Part shown: positions 6,141 through 33,015 of the stretch, one piece after another | Numbering within the stretch: the stretch's first letter is position 1 | How the letters are laid out: each line of letters begins with the position of its first letter | NCBI GenBank assembly: GCA_020848615.1 | Contig: JADLHW010000084.1 | Span: forward strand, 1 to 33,015 | DNA from: Thermoleophilia bacterium | GTDB lineage: Bacteria; Actinomycetota; Thermoleophilia; Miltoncostaeales; Miltoncostaeaceae | Reading direction: 5' to 3' | DNA length: 33,015 nucleotides | Program-made: the position numbers and the translations under genes | The notes under the pieces: generated by a model | Databases searched by the model: none | The model's input: only the letters and a program-made list of their open reading frames with translations | What the model was told of the DNA's origin: nothing

Positions 6141-6166
6141 CTGGCGGACTCCCCCTCCGATGGCTA

Positions 6167-6199
6167 CCCTCGTCCTGTCCAGTCTGGACAGGACGAGGG
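6167..6199. promoter_or_regulatory. Perfect 15+3+15 inverted repeat before toxin-antitoxin genes
   Basis: The left arm, CCCTCGTCCTGTCCA (6167-6181), and right arm, TGGACAGGACGAGGG (6185-6199), are exact reverse complements around GTC. The repeat lies 26 bases after the SRPBCC stop and its right arm contains the GAGGG that serves the antitoxin start at 6208. It could be the operator bound by the antitoxin-toxin complex. In RNA it would instead form a hairpin that hides the ribosome site. There is no T-run after it, so a simple terminator is less likely. Confidence 0.6.
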
Positions 6200-6207
6200 G
6201 AACACAC

Positions 6208-6468
6208 ATGACCTGGCAGCTCCAAGACGCCAAGCAGCGGTTCAGCCGGCTCGTCGATACCGCGCGCACCGACGGCCCGCAGGTGGTCACGCGGCACGGC
6301 CGCGAGGTGGCCGTGGTCCTGTCGATCGAGGACTACCGGCGTCTCCGTGGCGGGGACGGGCACACCGACAGCCTGCTCGAGGGGCCGGCCGACGATGCCT
6401 TTGCCGACCTGCTGGACGAGATCGTGGCCGCACGGGAGGTTCCTGAGGGCACCGAGTTCCCCGAGTGA
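6208..6468 (+). CDS. Phd/YefM-type antitoxin
   Basis: This 86-residue protein is a type II antitoxin. The N-terminus, MTWQLQDAKQRFSRLVDTA, followed by VVTRHGREVAVVLSIEDYRRL, is the Phd/YefM DNA-binding fold. The acidic C-terminal part (LLDEIVAAREVPEGTEFPE) would wrap the toxin. The ATG at 6208 has GAGGGG eight bases upstream; an ATG at 6160 in the same frame would start before the inverted repeat and is rejected. The end overlaps the toxin start by four bases. By analogy with known pairs it neutralises the toxin and represses the operon, probably at the adjacent inverted repeat. Confidence 0.85.
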   Translation: MTWQLQDAKQRFSRLVDTARTDGPQVVTRHGREVAVVLSIEDYRRLRGGDGHTDSLLEGPADDAFADLLDEIVAAREVPEGTEFPE

Positions 6469-6881
6469 GCTTCCTGTTCGACACGAACGTGGTCTCCGAA
6501 CTGCGGCGACGTTCCGGGAGTGCGGAGGTTCGCGCCTGGGCCGCCTCGACAAGCCCATCCGAGCGCTTTCTCAGCGTGCTGAGCGTCGGCGAGATCCGAT
6601 CGGGCATCGAACGCCGCCGCCGCCGGGACGCCGAGGCGGCGACCGTCCTCGATGCGTGGCTCGCCTCGCTCATCGTGGAGCACGAGGGGCGCATCCTTCC
6701 GGTCAGCCTGAGGGTCGCGGAGCGCTTCGCACGACTCACGGTGACGGATCCGCTCGCATTCGTGGACGGCCATCTCGCGGCGACGGCCCTCGAGCACGAC
6801 CTCACCCTGGTCACCCGCAACACTCGGGACGTGGTGCGCACCGGGGTCCGGCTGCTCAACCCCTGGGAGTCGCGGCCCTAA
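6465..6881 (+). CDS. PIN-domain ribonuclease toxin, VapC/FitB-like
   Basis: The 138-residue protein is a PIN-domain endoribonuclease, the toxin of the preceding pair. The acidic active site can be read: D6 in FLFDTNVVSEL, E43 in SVGEIRSGIE, D101 in FVDGHLAATALEHDL and D122 in VTRNTRDV. These residues bind Mg2+ or Mn2+ and cut RNA in this family, often tRNA or rRNA. The order DTNVxSE and the IRxGIE segment are closest to the FitB subgroup. Translation starts at GTG 6465 inside the antitoxin stop. The last bases overlap the end of the convergent MFS gene by four bases. Confidence 0.87.
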   Translation: MSFLFDTNVVSELRRRSGSAEVRAWAASTSPSERFLSVLSVGEIRSGIERRRRRDAEAATVLDAWLASLIVEHEGRILPVSLRVAERFARLTVTDPLAFVDGHLAATALEHDLTLVTRNTRDVVRTGVRLLNPWESRP

Positions 6882-16654: not shown

Positions 16655-16906
16655 ATGCGGCGGATCACCGCGACGGACGCGGCACGGAACTTCGCGAGCA
16701 TGCTCGACGACGTCGAGCGGCACGGCGCGCACTTCGTGATCGAACGGCGCGGGCGCGTGGTGGCCGCGGTCGCCCCGGCGACGGCCGGGAACGGACGTGC
16801 CCTCAAGGACGCGCTGTCCGCGATGCCCGCCGATGGCGCCTGGCTCGACGAGCTCCGGCGCCTCCGCGAGGACCTCCCCGACCAGCGGCGCGCGTGGCCC
16901 GGCTGA
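16655..16906 (+). CDS. Phd/YefM-type antitoxin (second pair)
   Basis: This 83-residue protein is a small antitoxin. Residues 1-42 (MRRITATDAARNFASMLDDV, then FVIERRGRVVAAVAP) follow the Phd/YefM DNA-binding fold. The C-terminal stretch LKDALSAMPADGAWLDELRRLREDL is helical and would bind the toxin. Sequence identity to the antitoxin at 6208-6468 is low by eye, so this is a separate system and not a duplication. The gene overlaps its toxin by 13 bases. There is no Shine-Dalgarno before the ATG; a leaderless start is likely. Confidence 0.83.
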   Translation: MRRITATDAARNFASMLDDVERHGAHFVIERRGRVVAAVAPATAGNGRALKDALSAMPADGAWLDELRRLREDLPDQRRAWPG

Positions 16907-17289
16907 TCCTCGACACGTCGGTGCTCATCGCCGCCGAGCGGCGGGACGTCGACCTGCGGGACGTCCTCGGGGACGACGACGACGTCGCGGTCGCGTCGGT
17001 CACCGTCGCCGAGCTGCTGGCCGGCGCCGGGATGGCGTCACCCGAGCGCCGCGGCGTGCGCGAGGGGTGGGCGGACGTGCTGCTGGCCCTGCTGCCGGTG
17101 GAGGCGTACGACGCCGAGGCCGCGCGCGAGCACGCCGCGCTCATGGCGCACGCGCGGTCCACCGGGATGCGCGCCGGGGCGCACGACCTGATGATCGCGG
17201 CGGTCGCGGTGCGCAGCGACCGCGAGGTGGTCACCCGCGACCCTCGCGGGTTCGACCTCCCGGGGGTCAGGGCGCGGGTGCTCGCATGA
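16894..17289 (+). CDS. PIN-domain ribonuclease toxin, VapC-like (second pair)
   Basis: The 131-residue protein is a VapC-type PIN-domain endoribonuclease. Acidic active-site residues are D7 (LILDTSVLIAAER), E40 (SVTVAELLAGA), D98 (GAHDLMIAAVA) and D116 (VVTRDPRGFDLPGV). The pattern DTSVLIAAER and TVAELLAG is that of classical VapC, unlike the FitB-like toxin at 6465-6881. Translation starts at GTG 16894, within the antitoxin gene. The toxin's stop overlaps an ATG of a further small ORF (17286-17414), so a third coupled product is possible. Confidence 0.86.
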   Translation: MARLILDTSVLIAAERRDVDLRDVLGDDDDVAVASVTVAELLAGAGMASPERRGVREGWADVLLALLPVEAYDAEAAREHAALMAHARSTGMRAGAHDLMIAAVAVRSDREVVTRDPRGFDLPGVRARVLA

Positions 17290-20809: not shown

Positions 20810-22104
20810 CCGGCCGCCTGCACCGTGCCGCCGGTGGGCACGCGGCCGCGCTTGGGGAAGTCCTTCTCGCCGACCTCGGGGTCGATGCGGCAGTTCCGCC
20901 CGACGTGCGCGCCGGCCGGGACCACCGCCCGCTTGCCCACCAGGGTGATCCCGGTGTTCAGCCGGCCCGGCTCGAGCTCGTTGGGGATCGTCATGTCCGG
21001 GCCCATCCCCACCTGCGCGTCGACGCCGATGATCGCCTCCTTGTCGACGATCACGTGGTCCAGCACCGCCCCGGACTCGACCACCGAGTCGAACATCACG
21101 ATGGAGTCGCGCACCACGGCGCCGGGCTTCACGATGACCCCGGGGGACAGCACCGACCGCTCCACCACGCCCTCGATGCGGCAGCCGTGGGAGATCAGCG
21201 ACTGGCGCACCACCGCCTGGGAGCCGACGTAGCCGGGCGGCCGCTCCTCGGACTTGGTGTGGATGAGCCACCCGCGGTCCGACAGGTCGATCTCCGGCTC
21301 GGACTCGAGCAGCTCCATGTTGCAGTCGAAGTAGCTCTGGATGGTGCCCACGTCGCGCCAGTACCCGTCGAACCGGTGCGCGAACACCCGGTCGCCGTCG
21401 GCGATCATGCGCGGCACCACGTCCCCGCCGAAGTCCTTCCGGGAGCCCTCGGTCTCGGCGTCCTCCACCAGGCGGCGGATGAGCGTGTCGGTGCGGAAGA
21501 TGTAGAAGCCCAGCGAGGCCAGGTCGGTCTCGGGCTTCTTCGGCTTCTCCAGCCACTCGGTGATGCGGCCCGCCTTGTCGGTGTTGGCGAGCCCGAAGCG
21601 GTGGGCCTCCTCGATGGGCACCCGCTGCAGCGCGATCGTGCAGTCCGCGTTCTGCTTGAGGTGCTGGTCGATCATCTCCCGGTAGTTCATGGAGTAGATG
21701 TGGTCGCCGCCGAGGATCATCACGTGCTCGGAGTTCAGCTCCTGCAGCTCCTGGATGTTCTGGTACACGGCGTCGGCGGTGCCGCGGTACCAGCCCGCCC
21801 CGCGCCGCCCGAGGTACGGCGAGATGAGCCGCACCCCGATGCTCTGGGAGCGGTCGAGGTCCCACGGCTTGCCCGTGCCGATGTGGTCGTGCAGCGACAC
21901 CGGGCGGTACTGGGTGAGCACCAGCAGGTCGTAGAGCTCCGAGTTCACGCAGTTCGACAGGGCGAAGTCGATGATGCGGTACTTGCCCGCGAACGGGACC
22001 GCCGGTTTCGCGCGCTGCGCGCTCAGGATGCTGAGCCGCTCCCCCTGGCCGCCGGCCAGGATCACCACGACGACGCCCTTGCGCTTGGGCTTCCAGACGG
22101 CCAT
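20806..22104 (-). CDS. glgC: Glucose-1-phosphate adenylyltransferase
   Basis: GlgC makes ADP-glucose from ATP and glucose 1-phosphate, the committed step of glycogen synthesis. The 432-residue protein has the nucleotide motif VVVILAGGQGERLSIL with the allosteric-site arginine and lysine region AQRAKPAVPFAGKYRIIDF. GWYRGTADAVYQNI, HIYSMNYREM, the sugar-phosphate segment EKPKKPE, and a C-terminal left-handed helix domain of hexapeptide type also follow. ATG at 22104 has AAGGAG eight bases upstream; a longer open frame to 22197 lacks one. It leads a three-gene unit glgC-glgA-kinase. Confidence 0.95.
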   Translation of the reverse strand: MAVWKPKRKGVVVVILAGGQGERLSILSAQRAKPAVPFAGKYRIIDFALSNCVNSELYDLLVLTQYRPVSLHDHIGTGKPWDLDRSQSIGVRLISPYLGRRGAGWYRGTADAVYQNIQELQELNSEHVMILGGDHIYSMNYREMIDQHLKQNADCTIALQRVPIEEAHRFGLANTDKAGRITEWLEKPKKPETDLASLGFYIFRTDTLIRRLVEDAETEGSRKDFGGDVVPRMIADGDRVFAHRFDGYWRDVGTIQSYFDCNMELLESEPEIDLSDRGWLIHTKSEERPPGYVGSQAVVRQSLISHGCRIEGVVERSVLSPGVIVKPGAVVRDSIVMFDSVVESGAVLDHVIVDKEAIIGVDAQVGMGPDMTIPNELEPGRLNTGITLVGKRAVVPAGAHVGRNCRIDPEVGEKDFPKRGRVPTGGTVQAAG

Positions 22105-22134
22105 CGGTCCCGCTCCTTCGGTTGATCCTGGGCG

Positions 22135-22140
22135 ATCGTA
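22135..22140 (-). promoter_or_regulatory. Possible -10 box of the glgC operon
   Basis: On the minus strand, TACGAT is found 31 bases before the glgC ATG, agreeing with the TAnnnT form of actinobacterial -10 boxes. Transcription from it would give a leader of about 24 bases that includes the AAGGAG ribosome site. The -35 region is unclear. The rest of the gap 22105-22224 shows no gene. Confidence 0.3.
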
Positions 22141-22224
22141 ACCCGGTGCGGTCCCCTTCGTCGTCCGGTGTACACCCCCTTCGCCGCCTCGTGACACACC
22201 CCGACCGCCCGTGTCGCCCGCTCG

Positions 22225-23358
22225 TCACGGCGAGGGCACCTGCCGAGCCAGAGCCTCCGCGCGCACCAGCACCGCGTCTTGGTGGGGTTGCAGCTCGTGT
22301 CCCGCCATCGCGGCGATGGCCGGCAGGAAGGGGTCCTCGACGCCCGCTCGCTCGCCGGAGAGCTCCTCGATGATCGCGAGTCCGAGGAACGGGGCCATGT
22401 AGCGCGAGTAGCCGCCCTCGTGGCACATCACGAGGTGTCCGCCGCAGAGCCTCGCCGCGGCACCCATGATCGCCCGGGTCATCTCCCGGAATCCCTCGCT
22501 GTGCAGCATGAGGCGGGACAGGGGATCCATCCCGCCGGCGTCGAGCCCCGACGGCACGATGATCAGATCCGGCCGGAATCGCTCGAGCGCGGGAACGACG
22601 ACGCGTTCCATCACGGCGAGGTACGCCCCGGTTCCGGTGCCCGGCGGGAACGGGACGTTGAGGTTCGTGCCGGCGCCTGCGCCGGCGCCGGTCGCGTCGA
22701 TGGCGCCGGATCCCGGCGGGAACGCCGCGTCCTGATGGATGGACACGGTGAGGACCCGCGGGTCCTCCCAGAAGATCTCCTGCGCGCCGTTGCCGTGGTG
22801 GGCGTCCCAGTCGACCACGGCGACGCGCGAGAGGCCGCGCGCCTCCAGCGCGTGGGCGGCCGCGACGGCCGCGTTGTTGAAGATGCAGAAGCCCAGGCCG
22901 TCGGCGGGCCGCGCGTGGTGCCCCGGCGGCCGGACGAGCGCGTAGGCATTGGGGACCAGGCCGTCCAGGACGGCGTCCACCGCCGTGAGCACCCCACCGG
23001 CGGCGAGGGCGGCGATCTCGTCGCCTCCAGCGCCGAAGCACGTCTCGCCGTACGGCGGGCCGACGTTGGCGTCACCCCCGGCACCGGCGCCGAGAGCCGT
23101 GATGCGGTCCAGGTACTCGCCGCAGTGGACGCGCAACAGCTCGTCGCGGGTCGCCGGCCGGGGCGCGATGAGGCGGAGCCGATCCGTGAGACCCGTGACG
23201 TCCAGCAGGTTCTTGATGCGCCGCTTGGCGGCAGGGGTCTCCAGGTGGAGGTCCGGCTCCAGGAACGTCGCCGGCGACGGTGGAAGGACTCCCGCGAAGT
23301 TCCCCGCGTCGTGCCACATGCAGCGCTCGCTCCATATGAGGCCTGTTCGCGGTGTCAT
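22225..23358 (-). CDS. Histone deacetylase-like amidohydrolase (HDAH / acetylpolyamine amidohydrolase class)
   Basis: The 377-residue zinc hydrolase belongs to the arginase-deacetylase fold and is closest to the class II HDAC-like bacterial amidohydrolases (HDAH type). Active-site residues are present: H147-H148 in RPPGHHARPADG, the Asp-His zinc site D183/D185/H187 in VDWDAHHGNG, zinc ligand D273 in PSGLDAGGMDPLSRLML, and the transition-state tyrosine Y317 in CHEGGYS. Substrates in the family include acetylated polyamines, acetyl-lysine-like amides and other short acylamides. ATG at 23358 has GGAGG seven bases upstream. The gene diverges from the amidohydrolase-transporter cluster, whose operator region it may share, so it probably acts on the same compound or a product of it. 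Confidence 0.9.
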   Translation of the reverse strand: MTPRTGLIWSERCMWHDAGNFAGVLPPSPATFLEPDLHLETPAAKRRIKNLLDVTGLTDRLRLIAPRPATRDELLRVHCGEYLDRITALGAGAGGDANVGPPYGETCFGAGGDEIAALAAGGVLTAVDAVLDGLVPNAYALVRPPGHHARPADGLGFCIFNNAAVAAAHALEARGLSRVAVVDWDAHHGNGAQEIFWEDPRVLTVSIHQDAAFPPGSGAIDATGAGAGAGTNLNVPFPPGTGTGAYLAVMERVVVPALERFRPDLIIVPSGLDAGGMDPLSRLMLHSEGFREMTRAIMGAAARLCGGHLVMCHEGGYSRYMAPFLGLAIIEELSGERAGVEDPFLPAIAAMAGHELQPHQDAVLVRAEALARQVPSP

Positions 23359-23489
23359 CCCCCAACCTCCGAGCGTCCGGCGTGGATGCGGAGCGCGTGC
23401 AGGGGCCTTGGACGCAGGGCCCGGTCGGCACCTCGAAATAGCTGCCGAGGGCCGATTGCATCGCGCGTCCGACTCGGGAGATGATGCCC
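23359..23489. promoter_or_regulatory. Divergent promoter region between HDAC-like and amidohydrolase genes
   Basis: About 130 bases separate the two opposite genes. For the plus strand, TTGCAT (23456-23461) and GATGAT (23480-23485) are spaced 18 bases apart and each match -35/-10 partly, with a predicted start near 23492. This would put the GTTCAACATGTTGAAC palindrome about 20-35 bases into the transcript. For the minus strand, CTATTT near 23440 is a weak -10 candidate. No gene or stable hairpin is seen. Confidence 0.3.
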
Positions 23490-25040
23490 ATGTGTTCTGA
23501 GCGTCGCCTGGGGTTCAACATGTTGAACGCAATGGCCACCGCGGGCCGGGACGCGACCACCCCCGATCTCGTGGTCCGTCGGTGTCTGCTCGTTCGGGAT
23601 CCGGCTGCCGCACCGGTCGAGGCCGACGTGCTCATCGGCGCCGGACACGTGCTGGACATCCGTGCCGCCGGAGGGCCCGTTCCGCGGGGCGCACGGGTCA
23701 TCGATGCGTCGGGGCTGCTCGCGATGCCGGGGCTGGTCAACGCGCACACCCACTCCCCTGAGACGTGTCTGCGCGGCATCGCGGAGGGCCGCCCGCTCGA
23801 GCCATGGCTGGCGGCGATGTTCACCGCCGCCGGCCGCTATGACGCCGAGGCGCACGCGATCGCCGCCACCGCCGCGGCGGTCGAGATGGTCCGGACCGGC
23901 GTCACCGGCGTGATCGACCACCTCTGGATGACGCCGCCAAGTCCCGAGGCGATCGACGCGGTCTGTCGCGCCTATGCCGCGGTCGGTATCCGGGCGGTCG
24001 TCGCGCCCCTCGCGAGTGACATCGACTGCAGCGAGGGATTGGCCGGGCGGCTCGGCATCGACATGACCGGGGCCCTGCTCACGGATCTCCTCCCCCTGCT
24101 GCCCGCGGGCGACCACCTGGCGCTGCTCGCGGACGCGATGAGGCGGTGGAACCGGCCGGGCTCGCTCGTGCGCGTCTTCGCCGGTCCGGGAGGCGTCCAG
24201 TGGTGCTCCGATGAGCTCCTGGCCGGAAGCGCCGAGCTGGCCCGTCGCCACGACGCCGGCGTCCACCTCCATCTCGTCGAGACCCTGATCCAGCGCGCCG
24301 CCTGCCGCGACCGATTCGGACGCGGTGCCGCCGAGGCCCTCGACGACCTCGGCGTGCTCGATCGGCGCTGCTCGCTCGCGCACTCGGTGTGGCTGGAGCC
24401 CGGCGATCCTGAGCGGATCGCGACCGCCGGCGCGGTCGTGGTCCACAACCCGGCGGCCAACCTGCGGTTGGGGAGCGGTCTTCCTCCCATCCGGGACCTG
24501 CTCGACGCGGGGGCCACCGTCGCCCTCGGCACCGACGGCTCGGCGTCGTCGGACAACCAGAACCTCTGGGATGCGATCAAGCTCGCGGCGCTCGTCCACA
24601 ACCGCGAGGACCGCTGGGTCACCGGTTCCGAGGCGCTCGCGATGGCGACCGCGGGCGGCGCCGCCGCCATGCTCGTCGGCCCCTCCGCCGGCACCCTGGT
24701 GCCGGGGGCTCCGGCGGACATCAGCCTCGTGGACCTCGCGGGGGACGGTCTCGCAGGGTCCGTGTGCCTAGCGGGTTCCCTCGCGCTCTCCGAAACCGGC
24801 GCCGGCGTCGTCCACGTGATCGTGGCGGGACGCCCCGTCGTCGTCGACGGGCGGTGCATCAGCGTCGACGAGCGAGCGGTGCGAGACGGCCTGCGCGCGT
24901 TGGCCCACGCGCGTGGTGGGCCGGCCGGCGTGGCACCCGAGGCCGCCCGGCTCACGGTCGTCGCCGAGGCATTCACCCGGCTGCGGGGCGCGCTCGTCCC
25001 CGGAGCTCCTCCCGACCACACCCAGGAGGTGTGCCAATGA
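23490..25040 (+). CDS. ATZ/TRZ-type amidohydrolase (deaminase/chlorohydrolase family)
   Basis: This metal-dependent hydrolase of about 500 residues is of the branch that includes guanine deaminase-like, SsnA, AtzB/TrzN and methylthioadenosine deaminases, which remove amino groups from purine or triazine rings. Visible ligands are H86-x-H88 in GLVNAHTHSPETCLRG, His in VHLHLVET, His in SLAHSVWLEPGD and Asp in LGTDGSASSDNQNLWD. The start is unclear. ATG at 23490 has GGGAG nine bases upstream and is used here; ATG at 23520 (MLNAMATAG) and 23532 (MATAGRD) would fit the family's shorter N-terminus and put the palindrome in the leader. The stop overlaps the next gene by three or four bases (ATGA). 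It is the first gene of the transporter unit. Confidence 0.87.
   Translation: MCSERRLGFNMLNAMATAGRDATTPDLVVRRCLLVRDPAAAPVEADVLIGAGHVLDIRAAGGPVPRGARVIDASGLLAMPGLVNAHTHSPETCLRGIAEGRPLEPWLAAMFTAAGRYDAEAHAIAATAAAVEMVRTGVTGVIDHLWMTPPSPEAIDAVCRAYAAVGIRAVVAPLASDIDCSEGLAGRLGIDMTGALLTDLLPLLPAGDHLALLADAMRRWNRPGSLVRVFAGPGGVQWCSDELLAGSAELARRHDAGVHLHLVETLIQRAACRDRFGRGAAEALDDLGVLDRRCSLAHSVWLEPGDPERIATAGAVVVHNPAANLRLGSGLPPIRDLLDAGATVALGTDGSASSDNQNLWDAIKLAALVHNREDRWVTGSEALAMATAGGAAAMLVGPSAGTLVPGAPADISLVDLAGDGLAGSVCLAGSLALSETGAGVVHVIVAGRPVVVDGRCISVDERAVRDGLRALAHARGGPAGVAPEAARLTVVAEAFTRLRGALVPGAPPDHTQEVCQ
23513..23528. promoter_or_regulatory. Perfect 16-bp palindrome GTTCAACATGTTGAAC, probable operator
   Basis: GTTCAACA and TGTTGAAC are exact reverse complements with no spacer. 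The palindrome lies at the start of the amidohydrolase gene, and two related copies lie at the start of the aldehyde dehydrogenase gene (31444-31459 and 31463-31478). No regulator gene is in the window, so the binding protein is unknown. Confidence 0.6.
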
Positions 25041-26068
25041 GACGGTCCCTCAGGGCCGCCGCGGTCGCGCTCGTCGCCCTCACCGCCGCCACCGGATTCG
25101 CCGCCTGCGGCGACGATGAGGAAGCGGGTGCGTCCAGCACCGCGCCATCATCCCTCAAGGTCGCGATGGTGCTTCCCGGTGCGATCAACGACAAGGGCTT
25201 CAACCAGACCGGCTATGACGGACTGAAGGCCTGCGAAGCCGGTGGCGCGACCGTCGCGTTCTCCGAGAAGACGGCGGTGCCCGACTTCACCAAGACCTTC
25301 CAGTCGTTCGCCCGCGACAACGACGTCGTCATCGGGCACGGCTTCGAGTTCGGGGAGATCGCCGCCGAGGTGGCGGACGAGTTCCCCGACGTCACGTTCG
25401 CGGTCACCAGCAATCCGCTCGCGCCCGAGGCGTCGAACGTCGTGCATCTGATGCCGAACAGCACGCAGGGCGCATTCCTGGCCGGCGTTGCGGCGGCATC
25501 GTCCTCCGAGACCGGGAAGCTCGGAGGGATCGCCGGCTTCGACTTCCCGGTGCTGCAGGCCCAGATGACCGCATTCGAGGCCGGGGCCAAGTACGTCGAC
25601 CCCGGGACCACCGTGAAGGTCGTCTACCTGGGCACCTTCGACGACGTCTCCAAGGGGCGTGAGGCCGCGCAGGGGATGGCCGCGTCCGGAATCGACGTCA
25701 TCTACCACATCGCCGACGCCGCGGGCGTGGGGGTGATCAACGGCGCCAAGGCCTCGAAGATCAAGGTCGTCGGCTGGGGCATCGACCAGAACTCGCTCGC
25801 GCCCAACACGGTGATCGCGAGCCAGGTTGTCGACCAGGCCAAGATGATCCAGCAGTTCTGCTCGGAGGCCGCGACGGGCCCGGTGGAGGGCGGCCGGGTC
25901 ATCAGCGACGGCCTGCAGTCCGGCGTCATCGACCTCACGAAGGTCTACAACGAGCCGGCTGAGGTGCAGGCCAAGGTCGACGAGGTCCGGGACGCCATCG
26001 TCGCCGGGGACGTGGAGGTTCCCTCCGTGGGCGGCGACATCCCCGGCTCCGGACCGGACGCCGGGTAG
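25037..26068 (+). CDS. BMP/PnrA-family substrate-binding lipoprotein
   Basis: This is the extracytoplasmic binding component of an ABC importer. The 343-residue precursor has an N-terminal signal with lipid attachment at C24 (TGFAACGDD, a lipobox variant). The mature part shows the PnrA/BMP pattern: VAMVLPGAINDKGFNQTGYDGL, VVIGHGFEFGE, FAVTSNP, GAFLAGVAAASSSETGKLGG, DVIYHIADAAGVGVIN, and IDQNSLAPNTVIASQV at the hinge. Family members bind purine nucleosides; some relatives bind other compounds, so the ligand is only suggested. AGGAGG lies seven bases before the ATG, a strong start. It overlaps the end of the amidohydrolase gene, which suggests the ligand or its product is that enzyme's substrate. 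Confidence 0.92.
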   Translation: MRRSLRAAAVALVALTAATGFAACGDDEEAGASSTAPSSLKVAMVLPGAINDKGFNQTGYDGLKACEAGGATVAFSEKTAVPDFTKTFQSFARDNDVVIGHGFEFGEIAAEVADEFPDVTFAVTSNPLAPEASNVVHLMPNSTQGAFLAGVAAASSSETGKLGGIAGFDFPVLQAQMTAFEAGAKYVDPGTTVKVVYLGTFDDVSKGREAAQGMAASGIDVIYHIADAAGVGVINGAKASKIKVVGWGIDQNSLAPNTVIASQVVDQAKMIQQFCSEAATGPVEGGRVISDGLQSGVIDLTKVYNEPAEVQAKVDEVRDAIVAGDVEVPSVGGDIPGSGPDAG

Positions 26069-26079
26069 GGGAAGCGGTC

Positions 26080-27615
26080 GTGCCGGTGCTGGCCCGCATG
26101 AGCGGCATCGTCAAGCGGTTCGACGACGTGGTCGCCAACGACGGCGTCACCGTCGAGTTCTCCGCGGGCGAGATCCACGTGCTGCTCGGTGAGAACGGCG
26201 CCGGCAAGACCACGCTCATGAACGTCCTCTACGGCCTGTCCCGGCCCGACGAGGGGAACATCGAGCTTGGCGGGCGGCCCGCGGAGATCCACGGGCCGCT
26301 CCATGCCATGCGGCTCGGAGTCGGCATGGTCCACCAGCACCCGTTGCTCGTGGGGCGGCTCACCGTCGCGGAGAACCTGCGCCTCGGGGGAGTGGGCGAC
26401 GGAACGGCGGACGGGCTGCGGGCGGCCGTCGCCGAGGTCACGCGCGTCATCCCCCTCGACATCGACCCGGCCCGCCGCGTCGAGGACCTCCCCCTGTCCC
26501 AGCGGCAACGTCTGGAGCTTGTGCGCTGCCTGGCCCGCGGCGTCCGCCTCCTCATTCTTGACGAGCCGACCGCGGTACTCACCCCGGCCGAGGTGGAGCG
26601 GCTGTTCACCGAGTTGCGATCGCTCACCACCCAGGGCCGGGGCGTGGTCCTCATCACCCACAAGCTCAGCGAGGTCGCGGAGGTGGCCCAGCGTGTCACG
26701 GTCTTGCGAGGCGGTCGCTCGCTGGGCACGACGCTCGCCGGGGAGCGATCGCTCGCGGAGCTGTCGGACCTCATGGTGGGACGGCAGGTCCCGGCGGTGA
26801 GCCACCGGGGCGCCGGGGCCGTCGGCACGGCGCCCCGCCTTCGCCTGCGTGGCGCCCGGGTCGGCGATGAGAATGGGCGGTGCGAGCTCGACGACGTCAC
26901 CCTCGAGGTGCACCCCGGGGAGATCGTCTGCGTGGTGGGCGTCGAGGGGAACGGTCAGCGGGCGCTCGCGGACGTCTGCTTCGGGCGGCGACCGGTGGCG
27001 GCCGGCTCCGTCGAGCTGGATGGAGCGATCCTCCCGCCAGTGGGCGAGTGGCGCCGGAGGGGCGTTCGGCTGGGCCGCGTCCCAGAGGACCGCCGGCACG
27101 AGGGGCTTGTGCTCGACGCGCCCCTGTGGCGGAACCTGCTGCTCGGGCCGATGGCGCCCCCGTCACGGTTCCTTCTGCACCGACGCCGCGCGCTCCGTCG
27201 TGCGCGCCGGTTGCTCACCGAGTACGAGGTCCGGCCCGCGGATCCCCATGCACTCGCTGCGGCACTCTCCGGCGGCAACCAGCAGAAGGTCGTGCTGGCC
27301 CGGGAGCTCTCGGGCGAACCCGGTGCGGTCGTGGCGGTCAACCCGACACGCGGACTCGACGTCGGTGCCCAGCATGACGTCCACCTGCGGCTTGCACGGC
27401 TCCGCGACGACGGGGTCGCGCTCCTCGTGATTTCGACCGACCTGGACGAGACGCTCGCGCTCGCCGACCGGATTGCCGTGCTCTATCGAGGGCGTCTCGC
27501 CGGCCCGTACCCCGCCGACGAGGCCGGGCGCGACCTCCTCGGCCGTCTGATGGCTGGTCTCGGTCCCGGCGAGTCCGAGCCGCCGGGCGCCGGCGTGTCG
27601 GCGGTCGCAGCATGA
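26080..27615 (+). CDS. Double-domain ABC transporter ATPase
   Basis: This 511-residue protein has two fused ATPase domains, as in nucleoside importers (NupA/YufO type). Domain 1 has Walker A GENGAGKTT (37-45), a shortened signature LPLSQRQRLE and Walker B RLLILDEPTAVL. Domain 2 has a degenerate Walker A, GVEGNGQRAL, a full LSGGNQQKVV signature and NPTRGLD in place of Walker B DEPT. These degenerate forms are normal in this family, with only one hydrolysing site. Start GTG at 26080 lies 11 bases after the lipoprotein stop and is preceded by AGGGGAA. The end overlaps the first permease gene by four bases. Confidence 0.93.
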   Translation: MPVLARMSGIVKRFDDVVANDGVTVEFSAGEIHVLLGENGAGKTTLMNVLYGLSRPDEGNIELGGRPAEIHGPLHAMRLGVGMVHQHPLLVGRLTVAENLRLGGVGDGTADGLRAAVAEVTRVIPLDIDPARRVEDLPLSQRQRLELVRCLARGVRLLILDEPTAVLTPAEVERLFTELRSLTTQGRGVVLITHKLSEVAEVAQRVTVLRGGRSLGTTLAGERSLAELSDLMVGRQVPAVSHRGAGAVGTAPRLRLRGARVGDENGRCELDDVTLEVHPGEIVCVVGVEGNGQRALADVCFGRRPVAAGSVELDGAILPPVGEWRRRGVRLGRVPEDRRHEGLVLDAPLWRNLLLGPMAPPSRFLLHRRRALRRARRLLTEYEVRPADPHALAAALSGGNQQKVVLARELSGEPGAVVAVNPTRGLDVGAQHDVHLRLARLRDDGVALLVISTDLDETLALADRIAVLYRGRLAGPYPADEAGRDLLGRLMAGLGPGESEPPGAGVSAVAA

Positions 27616-28709
27616 GCGCCGGCAGGCTCGCCGGATTCGTGCGCTCGGGGGCCGCGGCGTCGGTTGCGGTCAGGACCGCGGCGGCGCTCGCCGCGGCGGT
27701 CGCCGTGGGCGGGCTCGCCCTGATGATCGCGGGGCTGGATCCGGTGGACGCCTACCGCGCCGTGCTGGACGAGGCCGTCGGCTCGTCGTTCGGGATCCGC
27801 TCCAGCCTGCTGCAGGCCCTACCGATCACCATCACCGCCCTTGGCGTTGCTCTCGCGTTCCGTGCAGGGCTGTTCAACCTCGGAGGCGAGGGGCAGATCT
27901 ACGCTGGAGCGCTCGCGGCCGTGTTGGTGGCGCTCCAAGCGCGCGGGCTGCCGTTTCCGGTCCTCGTCCCGCTCATGCTGGTCTTCGGTGCCGTCGCCGG
28001 CGGACTCTGGGGCGGCATCGCCGGCGTCCTGCGCGCCCGCCTCGGCCTGTCGGAGATCATCACCACGATCCTCCTGAACTTCGTTGCCTTCTGGATGGTG
28101 AGCTACCTGGTGCGAGGGCCGATCCAGGATCCGGGTGGCGCGGGGTATCCGTACACCGAGAAGGTCGTGGATGGCGCCCGTCTGCCCGTCATCGGCGACA
28201 CCGTCCCGGCGGGGGTGCTGGTCCTCGCCGCCGTCGCGATCGGCGCTTGGGCGCTGCTGGAGCGCAGCGTGGTGGGGGTCCGTCTGAAGGATGTGGGCGA
28301 GGGGCCCTCGGCGGCCGCGTTCGCGGGCTGGCGCATCGATCGTCAGGTCATCCTCGCCCTCGTGATCGCCGGTGCGCTCGGCGGCCTCGCCGGCGCCGTC
28401 GAGCTGAGCGGCAACCAGCATCGGGTGAGCGACTTCTTCACGCCCGGGTGGGGCTTCGACGCGCTCGCGGTGGCGCTCATCGGCCGGGGCACGATCGCGG
28501 GCTCGGTGGCTGCCGGCGTGTTCTTCGGCGGTCTCCGCAGCGGGATCGACGGCGCGCAGACCTCGGTCGCAGTCCCCGAATCCGTCGGGCAGATCGTCCA
28601 GGGCACGGCGGTGCTCTTCCTCATCGTGGCGAACGCGGACGTCGCCGTGCGCTGGGCGCGACGTATCCGCCAGCCCGGGCACGGGAGGCACCATGCACGC
28701 ACTGCTTGA
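27612..28709 (+). CDS. ABC transporter permease, branched-chain/nucleoside type (first)
   Basis: The 365-residue permease belongs to the BPD_transp_2 family, in the branch of nucleoside importers (NupB/YufP). It has about eight to ten membrane segments, the family segment GLFNLGGEGQIYAGA, and the EIITTILLNFVAFWMVSYLV helix with GP. The coupling-loop region with VGEGPSAAAFAGWRI is typical and docks to the ATPase. Near the C-terminus is GWGFDALAVALIGRG. Its ATG overlaps the ATPase stop. The first about 20 residues are polar and Arg-containing, likely cytoplasmic. The end overlaps the second permease by 17 bases. Confidence 0.92.
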   Translation: MSAGRLAGFVRSGAAASVAVRTAAALAAAVAVGGLALMIAGLDPVDAYRAVLDEAVGSSFGIRSSLLQALPITITALGVALAFRAGLFNLGGEGQIYAGALAAVLVALQARGLPFPVLVPLMLVFGAVAGGLWGGIAGVLRARLGLSEIITTILLNFVAFWMVSYLVRGPIQDPGGAGYPYTEKVVDGARLPVIGDTVPAGVLVLAAVAIGAWALLERSVVGVRLKDVGEGPSAAAFAGWRIDRQVILALVIAGALGGLAGAVELSGNQHRVSDFFTPGWGFDALAVALIGRGTIAGSVAAGVFFGGLRSGIDGAQTSVAVPESVGQIVQGTAVLFLIVANADVAVRWARRIRQPGHGRHHARTA

Positions 28710-29625
28710 CATCCTCACGTCCGGGGCGCTCTACGCCGCCGGCATCCGGCTCGCGGTCCCCGTCTTCCTCGCCGCGCTCGGCGAGTTGGTCGCCGAGCGC
28801 GGCGGACTGGTGAACGTCGGTCTCGAGGGGATGATGCTCGCCGGGGCGTTCGGCGGGGTCCTCGGCTCCTATCTGTTCGACGATCCATGGCTCGGGGTCA
28901 TCACCGGTGTCGTGCTGGCCGTCGTGGTCGCGGCGATCCAGGCCGGGGTGGCCGTGTCGCTCGCGGGAGACCAGATCGTCACCGGCATCGCGCTGAACAT
29001 CGCCGTCCTCGGCGCGACCTCGTTCATGGCGCGAACCGTCTGGACCGACGGGAACGTTCCGCAGGTCGAGGGCTTCGACCCTTGGGCCGTGCCGGGCCTG
29101 TCATCGCTCCCGGGCATCGGCGACGTGGTGTTCGGGCAGGGCGCGCTGGTGTACCTCGCGGCGGCGCTCGGGGCCGTGCTCTGGTGGGTGCTCACACGCA
29201 CGGATTGGGGGTTGCGGCTGCGTGCCTGCGGCGAGGACCCTCGGGCGGCGGACAGTCTCGGCATCCGGGTGATCGCGATGCGCTGGCAGGCGACCCTGAT
29301 CTGTGGCGCGCTCGCCGGGCTCGGAGGCGTCTTCATCTCGCTGGGCGACATCTTCACCTTCAGTGACGGCATGTCGGGCGGTCGGGGGTTCATCGCGCTC
29401 GCCATCGTGATCATCGCCAGGTGGTCGCCGAGCCACCTCGTCCCCGCGGCTCTGCTGTTCGGGGTGTGCGAGGCCCTCGCGCTCCGTGCGCAGGTGACCT
29501 CCGCCGACCTCCCCTACGAGCTGCTCCTCGCGCTGCCCTACGTGCTGACCCTGGCGGTCTACGCCGGTCTGGTCGGCCGAACCCTCCCCCCGGCGGCGCT
29601 CGGCCGCCCCTACGTCCGGAGGTAG
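28693..29625 (+). CDS. ABC transporter permease (second, NupC/YufQ-like)
   Basis: The 310-residue second permease has the family segments GGLVNVGLEGMMLAGAFGGV, ITGIALNIAVLGATSF and LRACGEDPRAADSLGI (the coupling loop), with GRGFIALAIVIIARWSP near the C-terminus. With the preceding gene it forms the heterodimeric channel of an importer with outward-to-inward transport of small heterocycles in known relatives. GGGAGG lies five bases before the ATG at 28693, a strong start despite lying inside the previous gene. Only three bases separate it from the nitrilase-like gene. Confidence 0.92.
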   Translation: MHALLDILTSGALYAAGIRLAVPVFLAALGELVAERGGLVNVGLEGMMLAGAFGGVLGSYLFDDPWLGVITGVVLAVVVAAIQAGVAVSLAGDQIVTGIALNIAVLGATSFMARTVWTDGNVPQVEGFDPWAVPGLSSLPGIGDVVFGQGALVYLAAALGAVLWWVLTRTDWGLRLRACGEDPRAADSLGIRVIAMRWQATLICGALAGLGGVFISLGDIFTFSDGMSGGRGFIALAIVIIARWSPSHLVPAALLFGVCEALALRAQVTSADLPYELLLALPYVLTLAVYAGLVGRTLPPAALGRPYVRR

Positions 29626-29628
29626 GGC

Positions 29629-30501
29629 ATGAGCCCACCCGACACGTTCATGCTCGCCGTCGCCCAACCGCGGTGGCCGCCCGACGGCACGATCCAGGCG
29701 GTCGACGACGCCCTCGGCCTCGTTCGCAGGGCGGCGGCCGAAGGCGCCCGTCTGGTGCTGTTCCCCGAGGCGTACCCGGGCCCCATGCGCGTCGGTGAGG
29801 CGTGCGATCCGGAGCCGTTGATGCGGGAGGCGGCGGTCCGGCACGGCATGGCGGTGTGCTGGAGCCGGCTGGAGCCGGCGACGATCGAGGGCCCGAACCG
29901 CGTGATCCTGCACCTGGTCGACGCGCGTGGCGTGACGCTCGCCCACACTGCCCGCACCCACCCCGCCACCGGCGATGTCCACCCCACGCTCAACGGGTGC
30001 CCCGTCGCGCCGGGCGAGGAGCTCACCGCGGTGGAGCTCGACGGGGTTCTCCTCGGCCTGATGGTGTGCTCGGAGCTGTGGGTGCCGGAGGTGGCGCGCA
30101 TCCTCGCCCTGCGCGGCGCCGAGGTGCTGCTGGCGCCGGCCGGCGGAGGGTTCGGCGCGATCGCGGGGAACTGGCGCCTCGTCGCCCGGGCCCGGGCGAT
30201 CGAGAACCTCTGCCACGTCGCGCTCACCCAGACCCGTTTCGACGGGGAGCCGGGCAGCGCGCTCATCGCCGGTCCCGAGGGGCTCGTCGCCCGCTCGGCG
30301 ACCCACGACCTACTGGTCGCCCCACTGGACCTGGCCCGGGGCCGGGAGCTTCGCTCGCGGGACGACTCCATGGAGCAGCCCAAGACGTTCACCTCCCTGC
30401 CGGGCCTCCTGCGCGCCCGCCGGCCCGAGCTCTACGGCGAGCTCACCGCGCCCCGACCGGACGCCTACCCATACGGCTCGGTCGCCGAGGGCGGCAGGTG
30501 A
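29629..30501 (+). CDS. Nitrilase-superfamily hydrolase with altered catalytic triad
   Basis: This 290-residue protein has the alpha-beta-beta-alpha sandwich of carbon-nitrogen hydrolases (nitrilases, amidases, N-carbamoyl hydrolases). The Glu is E47 in LVLFPEAYPGP and the Cys is C147 in LLGLMVCSELWVPEVARI. The Lys, normally in an RKTH motif, is replaced: the segment reads HTARTHPATG, with R109 at the Lys position. In known enzymes the triad is Glu-Lys-Cys, so this may be a changed active site or a non-enzymatic member. It lies three bases after the second permease and overlaps the ArcS-motif gene by four, placing it in the transporter unit. Cloning-free check of the Arg is possible by alignment alone. 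Confidence 0.83.
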   Translation: MSPPDTFMLAVAQPRWPPDGTIQAVDDALGLVRRAAAEGARLVLFPEAYPGPMRVGEACDPEPLMREAAVRHGMAVCWSRLEPATIEGPNRVILHLVDARGVTLAHTARTHPATGDVHPTLNGCPVAPGEELTAVELDGVLLGLMVCSELWVPEVARILALRGAEVLLAPAGGGFGAIAGNWRLVARARAIENLCHVALTQTRFDGEPGSALIAGPEGLVARSATHDLLVAPLDLARGRELRSRDDSMEQPKTFTSLPGLLRARRPELYGELTAPRPDAYPYGSVAEGGR

Positions 30502-31433
30502 GCGTCTCCCGCGCGGAGCTCGTCGCACGTGGACACGCGAAGATCGCGTCGCCGTTCACCCTGGACGAGGACATGACGTTCCTCTGCCCCCAGGAGAACC
30601 TGGAGGCCATGGACCTGCCGGTGGTCCGCCGGTTCCACCGATGGATCTCCGAGCGCCGGCCGGAAACCGGTCCGGAGCCCGCGGTCCTCCTGCTGCTGCC
30701 CTGCGAGATGCGGAAGCCGTACACGCTCTCGGACGATCATCGCGCGGTCAACGAGGCCCTCATCGCCGCCGGATACCTTCCGGCGGGGCGGGGCGACTGG
30801 CCGGACGGGCTCGCGGCGCATGCGCCGGCGAGACTCCTGTCCAACGCGCCGCTGGTCGGCAAGGGCCTGCGGATCGACCGCGCCGTGATCTCCGAGCCCT
30901 TCGGGATCGTCCCGTACGAGGCCGTCTACCGGTGGCAGGGACGTCCGAGCCCCTGCACGCGGTACGACGACCCCGGCCTGTTCGAGCACCGCGGGATTCA
31001 CTGCTGGTGGCGGCCGGACTGCACGACGGTTCCCGGTCCGCGAGGCGCCCGCTGGGGCGACGCGGAGCGCACCGCCTATGTCGAGGTGCACAACCGGCTC
31101 GCGCGGCTCATGGGCGAGACCCTCGACGCATGGGCGCCTTCGTACCGTCGGATCCTCGCCTATGTCGCCCCCCGCCTGACCCACCGCTCGTTCCTGGACG
31201 ACGTGGCCGGCAGACGTCGGGCGCGGATCCCGGGGGGACGCATGGTCGGCGGTCGGCGGATGCCGCTGCGTGGGGTCGCGGACGACTGGCCGGGGCTGGT
31301 GACGCTCGTGCCGGCGTCCGGGACCTGGCCCGGCCGCACCGGCCGCCTCACCGACCCCGACTGCCTGCGGATGCTGGTCGCGGCGGTCGAGGCGGAGCAA
31401 TCGGACCATGATCCGCAACTCATCCGCCACTAG
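30498..31433 (+). CDS. Stand-alone protein with ArcS-type PC-x3-KPY-x2-S-x2-H motif
   Basis: The 311-residue protein is not a common bacterial family to me. Residues 68-81 read PCEMRKPYTLSDDH, an exact fit to PC-x3-KPY-x2-S-x2-H, the signature I recall for archaeosine synthase (ArcS, DUF5591 core), which in archaea modifies the nitrile of preQ0 in tRNA. Downstream, ISEPFGIVPYEAVYRW, then a Tyr-Asp pair (RYDDP) and EHRGIHCWW, recall the PLGxVPxELE-YD-tG-W order of that core. The usual TGT-like N-terminal part and PUA domain of ArcS are absent. GTG at 30498 overlaps the nitrilase stop by four bases. Function is unknown; an amidine- or amide-forming or hydrolysing role on a nitrile or amide is inference only. 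Confidence 0.7.
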   Translation: MSVSRAELVARGHAKIASPFTLDEDMTFLCPQENLEAMDLPVVRRFHRWISERRPETGPEPAVLLLLPCEMRKPYTLSDDHRAVNEALIAAGYLPAGRGDWPDGLAAHAPARLLSNAPLVGKGLRIDRAVISEPFGIVPYEAVYRWQGRPSPCTRYDDPGLFEHRGIHCWWRPDCTTVPGPRGARWGDAERTAYVEVHNRLARLMGETLDAWAPSYRRILAYVAPRLTHRSFLDDVAGRRRARIPGGRMVGGRRMPLRGVADDWPGLVTLVPASGTWPGRTGRLTDPDCLRMLVAAVEAEQSDHDPQLIRH

Positions 31434-31443
31434 CGCGCGAGAC

Positions 31444-31478
31444 CGCCAACATGTTGAAATGATTTCATCATGCTGAAC
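31444..31478. promoter_or_regulatory. Tandem operator-like palindromes before aldehyde dehydrogenase gene
   Basis: Two copies of the 23513-23528 palindrome occur, centred 19 bases apart. Copy 1 (31444-31459) keeps CAACATGTTGAA; copy 2 (31463-31478) reads TTTCATCATGCTGAAC, matching 13 of 16 positions by eye. Between them TGAAAT-G-ATTTCA (31455-31467) is a perfect 13-base palindrome, so the whole block is roughly symmetric. The aldehyde dehydrogenase ATG lies in copy 2. No ribosome site is visible; a leaderless message is likely. Confidence 0.5.
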
Positions 31479-32891
31479 GCCACGGAGACCATCATCCGGG
31501 GGCCCGAGGGACAGGGAGACCTCGGCGCCGTGCGTCTCGCCGACGCCGCCGCTCTCGACGCCACGGTGAGCGCCGCCAAGCGCGAGCAACGCGCGTGGGC
31601 CGCGCTCCCGGTGCGGGAGCGGGCCGACGCCCTCGATCGGGCGGCGTCGCTCCTCGAGCCCCAGGCGGATGAGCTGGGTTCCCTCCTGGCCGCCGAGTCC
31701 GGAAAGCCGATCGGACAGGCGCGACGGGAGATCGGTGGCACCATCTGGCTCCTCCGCGCCAACGCGGACGAGGGGCGCCGCACCGGCGGCCGGGTCCTCC
31801 CCACGGAAGGCAACCCGGGAACGGAGAACGATCTCGCCTACACCCGTCGCGAGCCCCTGGGGCTGGTGGCGGCGATCATCCCGTTCAACTTCCCCGCCGA
31901 GCTGCTGGTCGAGAAGGCGGCGGCCGCGCTCGTCGCGGGCAACGCGGTCGTCGTGAAGCCGCCGCTCGAGGATCCCCTCACGGCGATGCGCGTCGTCGAG
32001 GCGCTGATCGCCGGCGGAGTGCCCTCCGACATCCTGGGCGTGGTCAACGGGGGGCGCGAGACCGGCGCCGCCCTCGTCGCGGATCCCAGGGTCGACGCGG
32101 TGTCACTCACGGGCTCCACCGCCGCCGGGATCAGCGTCGCCGAGGCGTCGGCGCCGCTGTTGCGGCCCCTGCATCTGGAGCTGGGCGGCAACAACGCCTG
32201 CCTCGTCCTCGACGATGCAGACCTCGACCTGGTGACGAGTGAGGTGGCGTTCGGGCGCCTCATGATGAACGGCCAGGCGTGCTCGGCGTCGAAGCGCGTG
32301 ATCGTGCACCGGTCGCGGCACGACGAGCTGGCCGACCGCCTCATCGCGGTGGCCCGCAGCCAAGTCGTGGGCCCGGCCGCCGACGAAACCACCAGCATCG
32401 GGCCGCTCATCACCGCAACGGCCGCCGACCGGGTCCGCAGCCAGGTCGCCGCGGCCGCCTCCGACGGCGCAAGGGTCCTGCACGGCCTCGGCGGCGACGG
32501 ACCGTTCGTCGAGCCCACGGTCATCGGCTCGGTTCCCCCGGGAGCGGCCGTGGCCCGAGACGAGGAGATCTTCGGGCCGGTCTTCACCCTCATCCCGGTC
32601 GGGGGGGACGCCGAGGCGCTCTCCGTGGCGAACGGGTCGAGCTTCGGCCTGATGGCCTCGGTCTTCTCATCCGATCTCGGGCGGGCCCTGCATCTGGCCG
32701 AACATCTGGAGGCCGGAGGGGTCGTCGTCAACGGCAGCGACAACTACCGGCCGCCGGTGATCCCGTTCGGCGGCGTGAAGCGCTCCGGGCTGGGGCGCGA
32801 GGGCCTTGGCTACACGATCGCCGACCTGACACGCGAGAAGACCATCGTGTTCCGGCGTCTGCGCCGCACGGGACGGGAGGTGCGGGAGTGA
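31470..32891 (+). CDS. NAD(P)-dependent aldehyde dehydrogenase
   Basis: The 473-residue protein is an ALDH-superfamily oxidoreductase that converts an aldehyde to its acid. Active-site elements: PFNFPAELL (N140), VVKPPLEDPL (K163), the coenzyme-side TGSTAAG, general base E237 in LELGGNN, and catalytic C271 in MNGQACSASKR. FGPVFTLIPVG, then GVKRSGLGREG near the C-terminus, are typical. By general pattern it is near the succinate-semialdehyde, glyceraldehyde and aminoaldehyde dehydrogenases; the substrate is undefined. Start ATG 31470 gives MLNATETIIRG and lies in the operator-like block, without a ribosome site. It is 36 bases after the ArcS-motif gene and probably has its own promoter under the same regulator. 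Confidence 0.92.
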   Translation: MLNATETIIRGPEGQGDLGAVRLADAAALDATVSAAKREQRAWAALPVRERADALDRAASLLEPQADELGSLLAAESGKPIGQARREIGGTIWLLRANADEGRRTGGRVLPTEGNPGTENDLAYTRREPLGLVAAIIPFNFPAELLVEKAAAALVAGNAVVVKPPLEDPLTAMRVVEALIAGGVPSDILGVVNGGRETGAALVADPRVDAVSLTGSTAAGISVAEASAPLLRPLHLELGGNNACLVLDDADLDLVTSEVAFGRLMMNGQACSASKRVIVHRSRHDELADRLIAVARSQVVGPAADETTSIGPLITATAADRVRSQVAAAASDGARVLHGLGGDGPFVEPTVIGSVPPGAAVARDEEIFGPVFTLIPVGGDAEALSVANGSSFGLMASVFSSDLGRALHLAEHLEAGGVVVNGSDNYRPPVIPFGGVKRSGLGREGLGYTIADLTREKTIVFRRLRRTGREVRE

Positions 32892-32902
32892 GACGCCCTG
32901 TG

Positions 32903-33015
32903 TCAACCCTGGGTGGCCAGAATGCGCTGCAGTGCTCGGTGGTGGGCGGGGTTGTAGGTGGTGTGGTCTTGCCAGAGTCGCCAGATCACGGTGCACCATG
33001 CGCGGGCGAGGATGC
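32903..33015 (-). CDS. C-terminal end of transposase-like ORF, IS110-type (partial)
   Basis: On the minus strand an open frame runs in from the window edge and stops at TGA (32903-32905). Its 36 visible codons begin ILARAWCTVIWRLWQDHTTY, then a PAHHRAL helix. A Trp-rich ARAWxxVIWRxWQDxxxYxP tail is what I recall from the C-termini of IS110/IS116/IS902-type transposases. Only the tail can be seen, so the element's state and ends are unknown. It lies 11 bases beyond the aldehyde dehydrogenase stop, so the element or its remnant borders the catabolic cluster directly. Confidence 0.45.
   Translation of the reverse strand, partial: ILARAWCTVIWRLWQDHTTYNPAHHRALQRILATQG

Follow-up and report, generated by a model that had tools for sequence, protein, structure and literature searches.

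What is gained by keeping an importer, several hydrolases, and a relative of the archaeal enzyme ArcS together in one compact run of genes? This question is raised by a stretch of 33,015 nucleotides from a Thermoleophilia bacterium, here called the window, which represents contig C84 (73% GC) of a 3.64 Mb bin that is 96.5% complete (G000, hereafter the own genome). An initial annotation had combined these genes into one uncharacterized system for uptake and degradation of a nitrogen-rich compound, a proposal that is well supported by our analysis of further genomes. On balance, the gene content favors a system that imports and catabolizes a purine-like heterocycle with a nitrogen-containing side chain in its free, non-ribosylated form, and the ring compound is probably taken apart for its nitrogen. 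An open reading frame (ORF) and Pfam domain search of the window revealed nine full-length, intact ORFs that match the genes named in the initial annotation and form a neighboring run (Table 1). The number of eight genes given there has to be corrected accordingly, and the divergent gene of the HDAC-like amidohydrolase lies outside the start at position 23490 assigned to the system.

The search for linkage in other genomes was based on the DUF5591 protein with its ArcS core, the rarest member of the set, which was found in 3 out of 396 genomes evenly sampled from the phylum. When 85,000 species genomes were scanned, 29 DUF5591 loci were obtained, from Actinomycetota, Chloroflexota, and one bin each with the label Elusimicrobia or Lachnospiraceae. 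At least one further member of the set was located near the DUF5591 gene in 28 of these loci, and hence the genes are linked elsewhere and across phyla. The neighborhood check suggested in the initial annotation therefore turned out in favor of its proposal. In L007, L009, L010, L012, and L013 the genes for the ATZ enzyme, BMP protein, ATPase, two permeases, CN-hydrolase, HDAC-like protein, and DUF5591 protein follow each other in this order on one strand, with 50-68% identity to the window. The HDAC-like gene is situated between the CN-hydrolase and ArcS-like genes on the same strand in six relatives and therefore belongs to the set. Close relatives of the CN-hydrolase (52-53% identity) were found only in G000, G165, and G022 among 392 genomes of the phylum, with the next best match at 38%. 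These are the same three genomes that carry the ArcS-like gene in this sample, a coincidence expected by chance about once in 10 million (3/3 in about 392 genomes). Furthermore, the identities of the ATZ, BMP, ATPase, permease 2, and HDAC-like proteins to their window counterparts covary with that of the DUF5591 protein (r 0.88-0.91), as expected for genes inherited as a unit. A relative of the aldehyde dehydrogenase was present in 14 of the 29 loci, in 11 of these at an identity of at least 50%. Constant across versions are the DUF5591 protein, an importer, and ATZ-type amidohydrolases. The smallest version (L023, Lachnospiraceae bin) comprises an IclR regulator, the DUF5591 protein, the BMP importer, a MatE protein, and an amidohydrolase. 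On a Chloroflexota contig (L014) a PreA-like gene with DHO_dh and 4Fe-4S motifs is located upstream, beside the CN-hydrolase, ATZ, and DUF5591 genes.

In six relatives the window-type genes continue into a further module. It encodes a hydantoinase-like amidohydrolase, an amidohydrolase of the isochorismatase type that is most similar to biuret hydrolase and RutB, an AA_synth protein, an enamidase homologue, a DUF1989 protein, and a class II aldolase. Further genes of the module are those for an NMT1-type ABC importer, a CrtO-like FAD enzyme, an O-methyltransferase, a second enzyme of the ATZ type, and regulators of the IclR or GntR type. A class III aminotransferase gene is present in addition at several loci. 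The enamidase homologue is related to the solved enamidase 2vun over its full length (301 bits) and thereby resembles a component of the anaerobic nicotinate pathway, although no other genes of that pathway were recognized in the loci examined. In the own genome the second module was found at the end of contig C1 (31260-43980) with 44-72% identity. Since C84 and C1 each terminate near their module, the two contigs may adjoin. The nine window genes apparently represent half of an undescribed pathway of about 20 genes.

A version from Rhizobium sp. ACO-34A is encoded on a plasmid (CP021373.1, L054), where the DUF5591 gene shares 39% and the ATZ enzyme 34% identity with the window. This cluster comprises genes for an HpaB-type monooxygenase, a flavin reductase, an amidase, a PuuE-type allantoinase (317 bits, below its cut-off of 424.6), a racemase/arylmalonate-decarboxylase-like protein, an aminotransferase, and an aldehyde dehydrogenase, followed by a nitrate/sulfonate-type importer. 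It also includes an 8-oxoguanine deaminase scoring 618 bits, above the curated cut-off of 532 (NF006055). Between the aminotransferase and aldehyde dehydrogenase genes an unannotated HDAC-like gene was identified (L054:23259-24349; 55-61% identity to that of the window), which apparently is frame-shifted or mis-sequenced, its halves lying in different frames.

The component families are known, and their combination is undescribed in the searchable literature. Open-licence literature on ArcS, DUF5591, deazapurine catabolism, DUF1989 with hydantoinase, and enamidase with hydantoinase contained no description of the system, subscription papers lying outside this scope. The system probably belongs to bacterial N-heterocycle catabolism. 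It adds to this field a conserved pathway of cultured and uncultured bacteria, and this pathway includes a member of a family so far known from the modification of archaeal tRNA and phage DNA.

The BMP protein provides hints to the imported compound. In BmpA and TmpC the base is located between Phe27 and Phe176, and the ribose is held by Asp98, Asp225, and Lys242 (PMC13325309). The equivalents of both phenylalanines are Phe in the window protein, as in all cluster proteins that the alignment covers. Those of the three ribose-binding residues are Ser, Gly, and Val in the window and are replaced in 14 out of 14 cluster relatives. GVDxDQ is changed to GWGxDQ in all cluster BMP proteins but the Lachnospiraceae one, and a non-cluster BMP protein encoded near L027 keeps both Asp residues. 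Because the stacking Phe pair is kept and all three ribose contacts are lost, we infer from these alignments that the ligand is a free base. For AtzT, a BMP protein from the triazine pathway, binding of free guanine at 110 nM has been described (PMC6834077), which provides a precedent for a base-binding member of this family. No nucleoside hydrolase or phosphorylase was recognized among the annotated genes in the loci. Thus, the importer shares with PnrA, BmpD, and BmpA importers and with AtzT the BMP lipoprotein, the double ATPase, the two BPD_transp_2 permeases, and the base-stacking Phe pair, but differs in the lack of the three ribose-engaging residues and in its linkage to putative ring-opening hydrolases.

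In the DUF5591 protein of the window the ArcS motif PC-X3-KPY-X2-S-X2-H reads PCEMRKPYTLSDDH. Its residues C69, K73, P74, Y75, S78, and H81 are invariant in 28 out of 28 sequences, and all 28 members match PF17884 (DUF5591), the window protein with 30.8 bits at a curated cut-off of 26. The only solved relative found was AF0587 (2q07, E 1e-4), and an AlphaFold model reached a predicted local distance difference test score (pLDDT) of 93. In contrast to the archaeal enzyme, this is a bacterial stand-alone protein of 311 residues, which lacks the TGT-like N-terminal part, PUA, and any other domain, and adjoins an importer and hydrolases. It is not ArcS, because the other ArcS domains are missing and the ArcS equivalog model yields 27.1 of the 440 bits needed, at model positions 271-321 only. 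An ArcS homologue of phage nt-1 was considered as a bridge to archaeal ArcS and rejected, since the motif is degenerate in this protein and the search for viral relatives gave none.

Neither TGT, for which 14 out of 14 controls were positive, nor QueC was found in the own genome, and TGT is missing from 7 of 29 further genomes, including the Herbiconiux and Actinocorallia isolates. Since TGT and QueC are missing from the own genome, and TGT from seven further hosts, the DUF5591 protein is unlikely to finish a tRNA or DNA base in the own genome. Queuosine apparently does not occur in the tRNA of this organism.

The HDAC-like protein has HDAH 5g0x as its closest solved relative (349 bits) and is also related to propanil and dimethoate hydrolases. 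The D-x-H, D, and GGY residues (Zn ligands and Tyr) are kept, and the scores to HDAH and propanil hydrolase are in the range of 300-350 bits. In contrast to these enzymes, it is embedded in a multi-gene pathway. The solved relatives of the ATZ enzyme include triazine hydrolases and 8-oxoguanine deaminase. The nitrilase-fold protein retains Glu and Cys but carries Arg at the position of the catalytic Lys, as do 13 out of 13 close relatives. This Arg-bearing subfamily (RYERxHPATGD) tracks the ArcS-like gene, and a distant Chloroflexota member (L014) has Lys.

A pathway can be proposed from the established gene content, linkage across phyla, motif conservation, lost ribose contacts, and missing TGT and QueC, with every reaction, the reaction order, and the substrate deduced from family membership. 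The BMP-type ABC importer would take up the free base. The ArcS-core, HDAC-like, and nitrilase-fold proteins would then work on C-N bonds of the side chain, of nitrile, amidine, or amide type, and the ATZ/TRZ enzymes would strip the ring amino group of a 2-amino-pyrimidinone, as 8-oxoguanine and guanine deaminases do. Opening of the pyrimidinone ring and release of the carbamoyl nitrogen may be carried out by the hydantoinase-like and isochorismatase-like enzymes, in Rhizobium presumably by the PuuE-type allantoinase, amidase, and HpaB monooxygenase. A leftover cyclic enamide could be opened to ammonia and a formyl acid by the enamidase homologue, as in nicotinate degradation, and aldehyde dehydrogenase, class III aminotransferase, and class II aldolase/decarboxylase would finish the degradation.

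A purine- or deazapurine-like ring, as suggested in the initial annotation, thus receives indirect support from the 8-oxoguanine deaminase and PuuE-type allantoinase of Rhizobium, the hydantoinase and enamidase homologues, the ArcS motif, and AtzT. As leading candidate we tentatively propose a 7-deazaguanine base (queuine, preQ0, or the acid, amide, or amidine of preQ0). This choice is based on two points: a pyrrolopyrimidine that loses its pyrimidinone ring could leave a cyclic enamide, which an imidazole-containing purine would not, and ArcS is the enzyme of the 7-deazaguanine nitrile. The system may possibly be the first dedicated 7-deazaguanine catabolism, with base-specific BMP import, a repurposed ArcS-family enzyme acting on the C7 side chain, and conversion of the ring to ammonia and central metabolites. 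If true, this would answer the question left open by work on queuosine salvage of what becomes of preQ0 and queuine lost to the environment. The queuosine- or archaeosine-like compound considered in the initial annotation is neither demonstrated nor dismissed by our data, and the binding protein speaks for a free base rather than an intact nucleoside. The polyamine part suggested there found no direct or specific support. An amine or acyl-amine side chain is plausible from the HDAC-like, aminotransferase, and aldehyde dehydrogenase genes.

Several findings weigh against this interpretation. The similarity to ArcS is confined to about 46 residues and the motif. Foldseek retrieved no solved structure from the PDB for the DUF5591 model at E<0.001, and a second fold comparison gave weak, tied matches (Z about 5) to uracil-DNA glycosylases and cutinases. 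Archaeal ArcS accepts the preQ0 nucleoside and its 5'-phosphate, but preQ0 as free base is not a substrate (PMC11298593, Fig. 4A). That TGT and QueC were not found in the own genome could be due in part to the incompleteness of the bin. With regard to the hydrolases, the closest NCBIfam model of the window ATZ enzyme is the 8-oxoguanine deaminase NF006055, reached with 220 of 532 bits and thus below the cut-off, and the activity of the nitrilase-fold protein is uncertain without the catalytic Lys. The hydantoinase-like protein (L009:11026-12579; 41720-43207 on C1 of the own genome) reads D-T-E-A-H in the L009 sequence versus D-x-H-x-H of hydantoinases; Glu appears to replace the first metal-binding His, so that one ligand may be changed. 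Finally, several Chloroflexota and Lachnospiraceae versions have no CN-hydrolase, HDAC-like gene, or second module near the locus, and hosts of such reduced versions may run different reactions.

Catabolism of ordinary or oxidized purines, such as guanine, 8-oxoguanine, or methylated purines, is a rather unlikely alternative. In this case the substrate would be deaminated by ATZ enzymes and its ring opened by hydantoinase or allantoinase, with minor roles left for the ArcS-like and HDAC-like proteins. The superfamilies of oxidized-purine catabolism (8-oxoguanine deaminase, PuuE allantoinase, hydantoinase, RutB-like steps) indeed recur in these clusters, the first two in the Rhizobium version. 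Binding of guanine by AtzT (PMC6834077) and the uricase encoded elsewhere in the Actinocorallia and Herbiconiux genomes would also agree with such a substrate. However, uricase, the one enzyme searched for as indicator of the classical urate pathway, was not found in the own genome and four close relatives. Moreover, the clusters add aldehyde dehydrogenase and aminotransferase genes, and the enamidase, HDAC-like, ArcS-like, and nitrilase-fold genes are conserved although they are not needed for purines.

Pterin deaminases are ATZ-like amidohydrolases, and the best NCBIfam models of the importer are putative B6 transporters, with RfuA as a distant relative. Together with the NMT1-type alternative importer of the second module, this could point to a pteridine, flavin, deazaflavin, or thiamine-pyrimidine compound. 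We consider such substrates unlikely, since the chemistry of pteridines or flavins is not known to involve the ArcS motif and the Rhizobium version contains an 8-oxoguanine deaminase equivalog. Detoxification or use of a nucleoside-type antibiotic of actinomycetes or of a pollutant triazine appears quite improbable. Propanil and dimethoate hydrolases among the HDAC-like relatives, the association of ATZ/TRZ enzymes and AtzT with triazines, and the many environmental actinomycetes among the hosts are in line with this idea. However, about 20 genes with two importers and 40-60% conservation across several phyla are more in keeping with an old nutritional pathway than with a recent detoxification, and an intact nucleoside antibiotic is not expected for a BMP protein without ribose contacts.

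The ArcS-like motif, the DUF5591 match, and the presence of TGT in 22 of the 29 host genomes might indicate modification or salvage of 7-deazaguanine in tRNA or DNA, in which case the ArcS-like protein would have nucleic acid as its substrate. This is very improbable in view of the hosts without TGT, among them two isolates and the own genome, which in addition lacks QueC. Furthermore, the neighbors are hydrolases and importers rather than Que genes, and no ArcS-like genes were found in phages and viral contigs. A chance neighborhood of unrelated genes, as might be suspected from the divergent HDAC-like gene and from a window that is a single contig of a fragmented bin, is refuted by the joint occurrence of the same genes in distant genomes and can practically be dismissed.

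The layout of the window genes is compact. The ATZ and BMP genes share an ATGA overlap, and the following junctions are +11, -4, -17, +3, -4, and +36 bases; all plus-strand neighbors therefore overlap or are at most 36 bases apart, as the initial annotation had largely indicated. The ATZ gene probably starts at the ATG at position 23532, because a 16-bp palindrome fills the upstream part of the ORF.

Table 1. Genes and palindromic sites of the proposed catabolic locus in the window
Feature	Position	Strand	Evidence and remarks
HDAC-like amidohydrolase (HDAH type)	22225..23358	-	PF00850 Hist_deacetyl, 288 bits; divergent
ATZ/TRZ-type amidohydrolase	23481..25040	+	PF01979 Amidohydro_1, 156 bits
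16-bp perfect palindrome GTTCAACATGTTGAAC	23513..23528		5' end of ATZ gene; possible operator
BMP/PnrA-like lipoprotein, substrate-binding protein	25037..26068	+	PF02608 Bmp, 212 bits
Double ABC ATPase of importer	26080..27615	+	PF00005, two stretches; ABC_ATP_B6, 418 bits
Importer permease 1	27612..28709	+	PF02653 BPD_transp_2, 147 bits
Importer permease 2	28693..29625	+	PF02653 BPD_transp_2, 133 bits
Nitrilase-fold (CN_hydrolase) protein	29629..30501	+	PF00795, 64 bits
ArcS-core (DUF5591) protein	30498..31433	+	PF17884, 30.8 bits
Two palindrome-like sites	31445-31458, 31464-31477		Before and at the start of the aldehyde dehydrogenase gene
Aldehyde dehydrogenase (Aldedh)	31470..32891	+	PF00171, 445 bits

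With up to 3 mismatches, 4 palindrome sites were found in the window versus 0.04 expected. Related sites were also observed in two relatives (L010:12157 and L011:4887). The palindromes possibly form an operator shared by the window and its relatives, and its regulator is perhaps of the IclR type encoded next to the genes in L007 and L009 and on contig C1 of the own genome. No riboswitch or other Rfam element was detected in the region 21000-33015. A sigma-70 promoter scan gave no match, which is uninformative for an actinomycete of 73% GC.

Apart from this system, a Phd-like antitoxin and a PIN-domain (VapC-like) toxin are encoded at positions 6160-6881 of the window, and a second, lone PIN-domain gene at 16894-17289, both as judged from N-terminal sequences alone.

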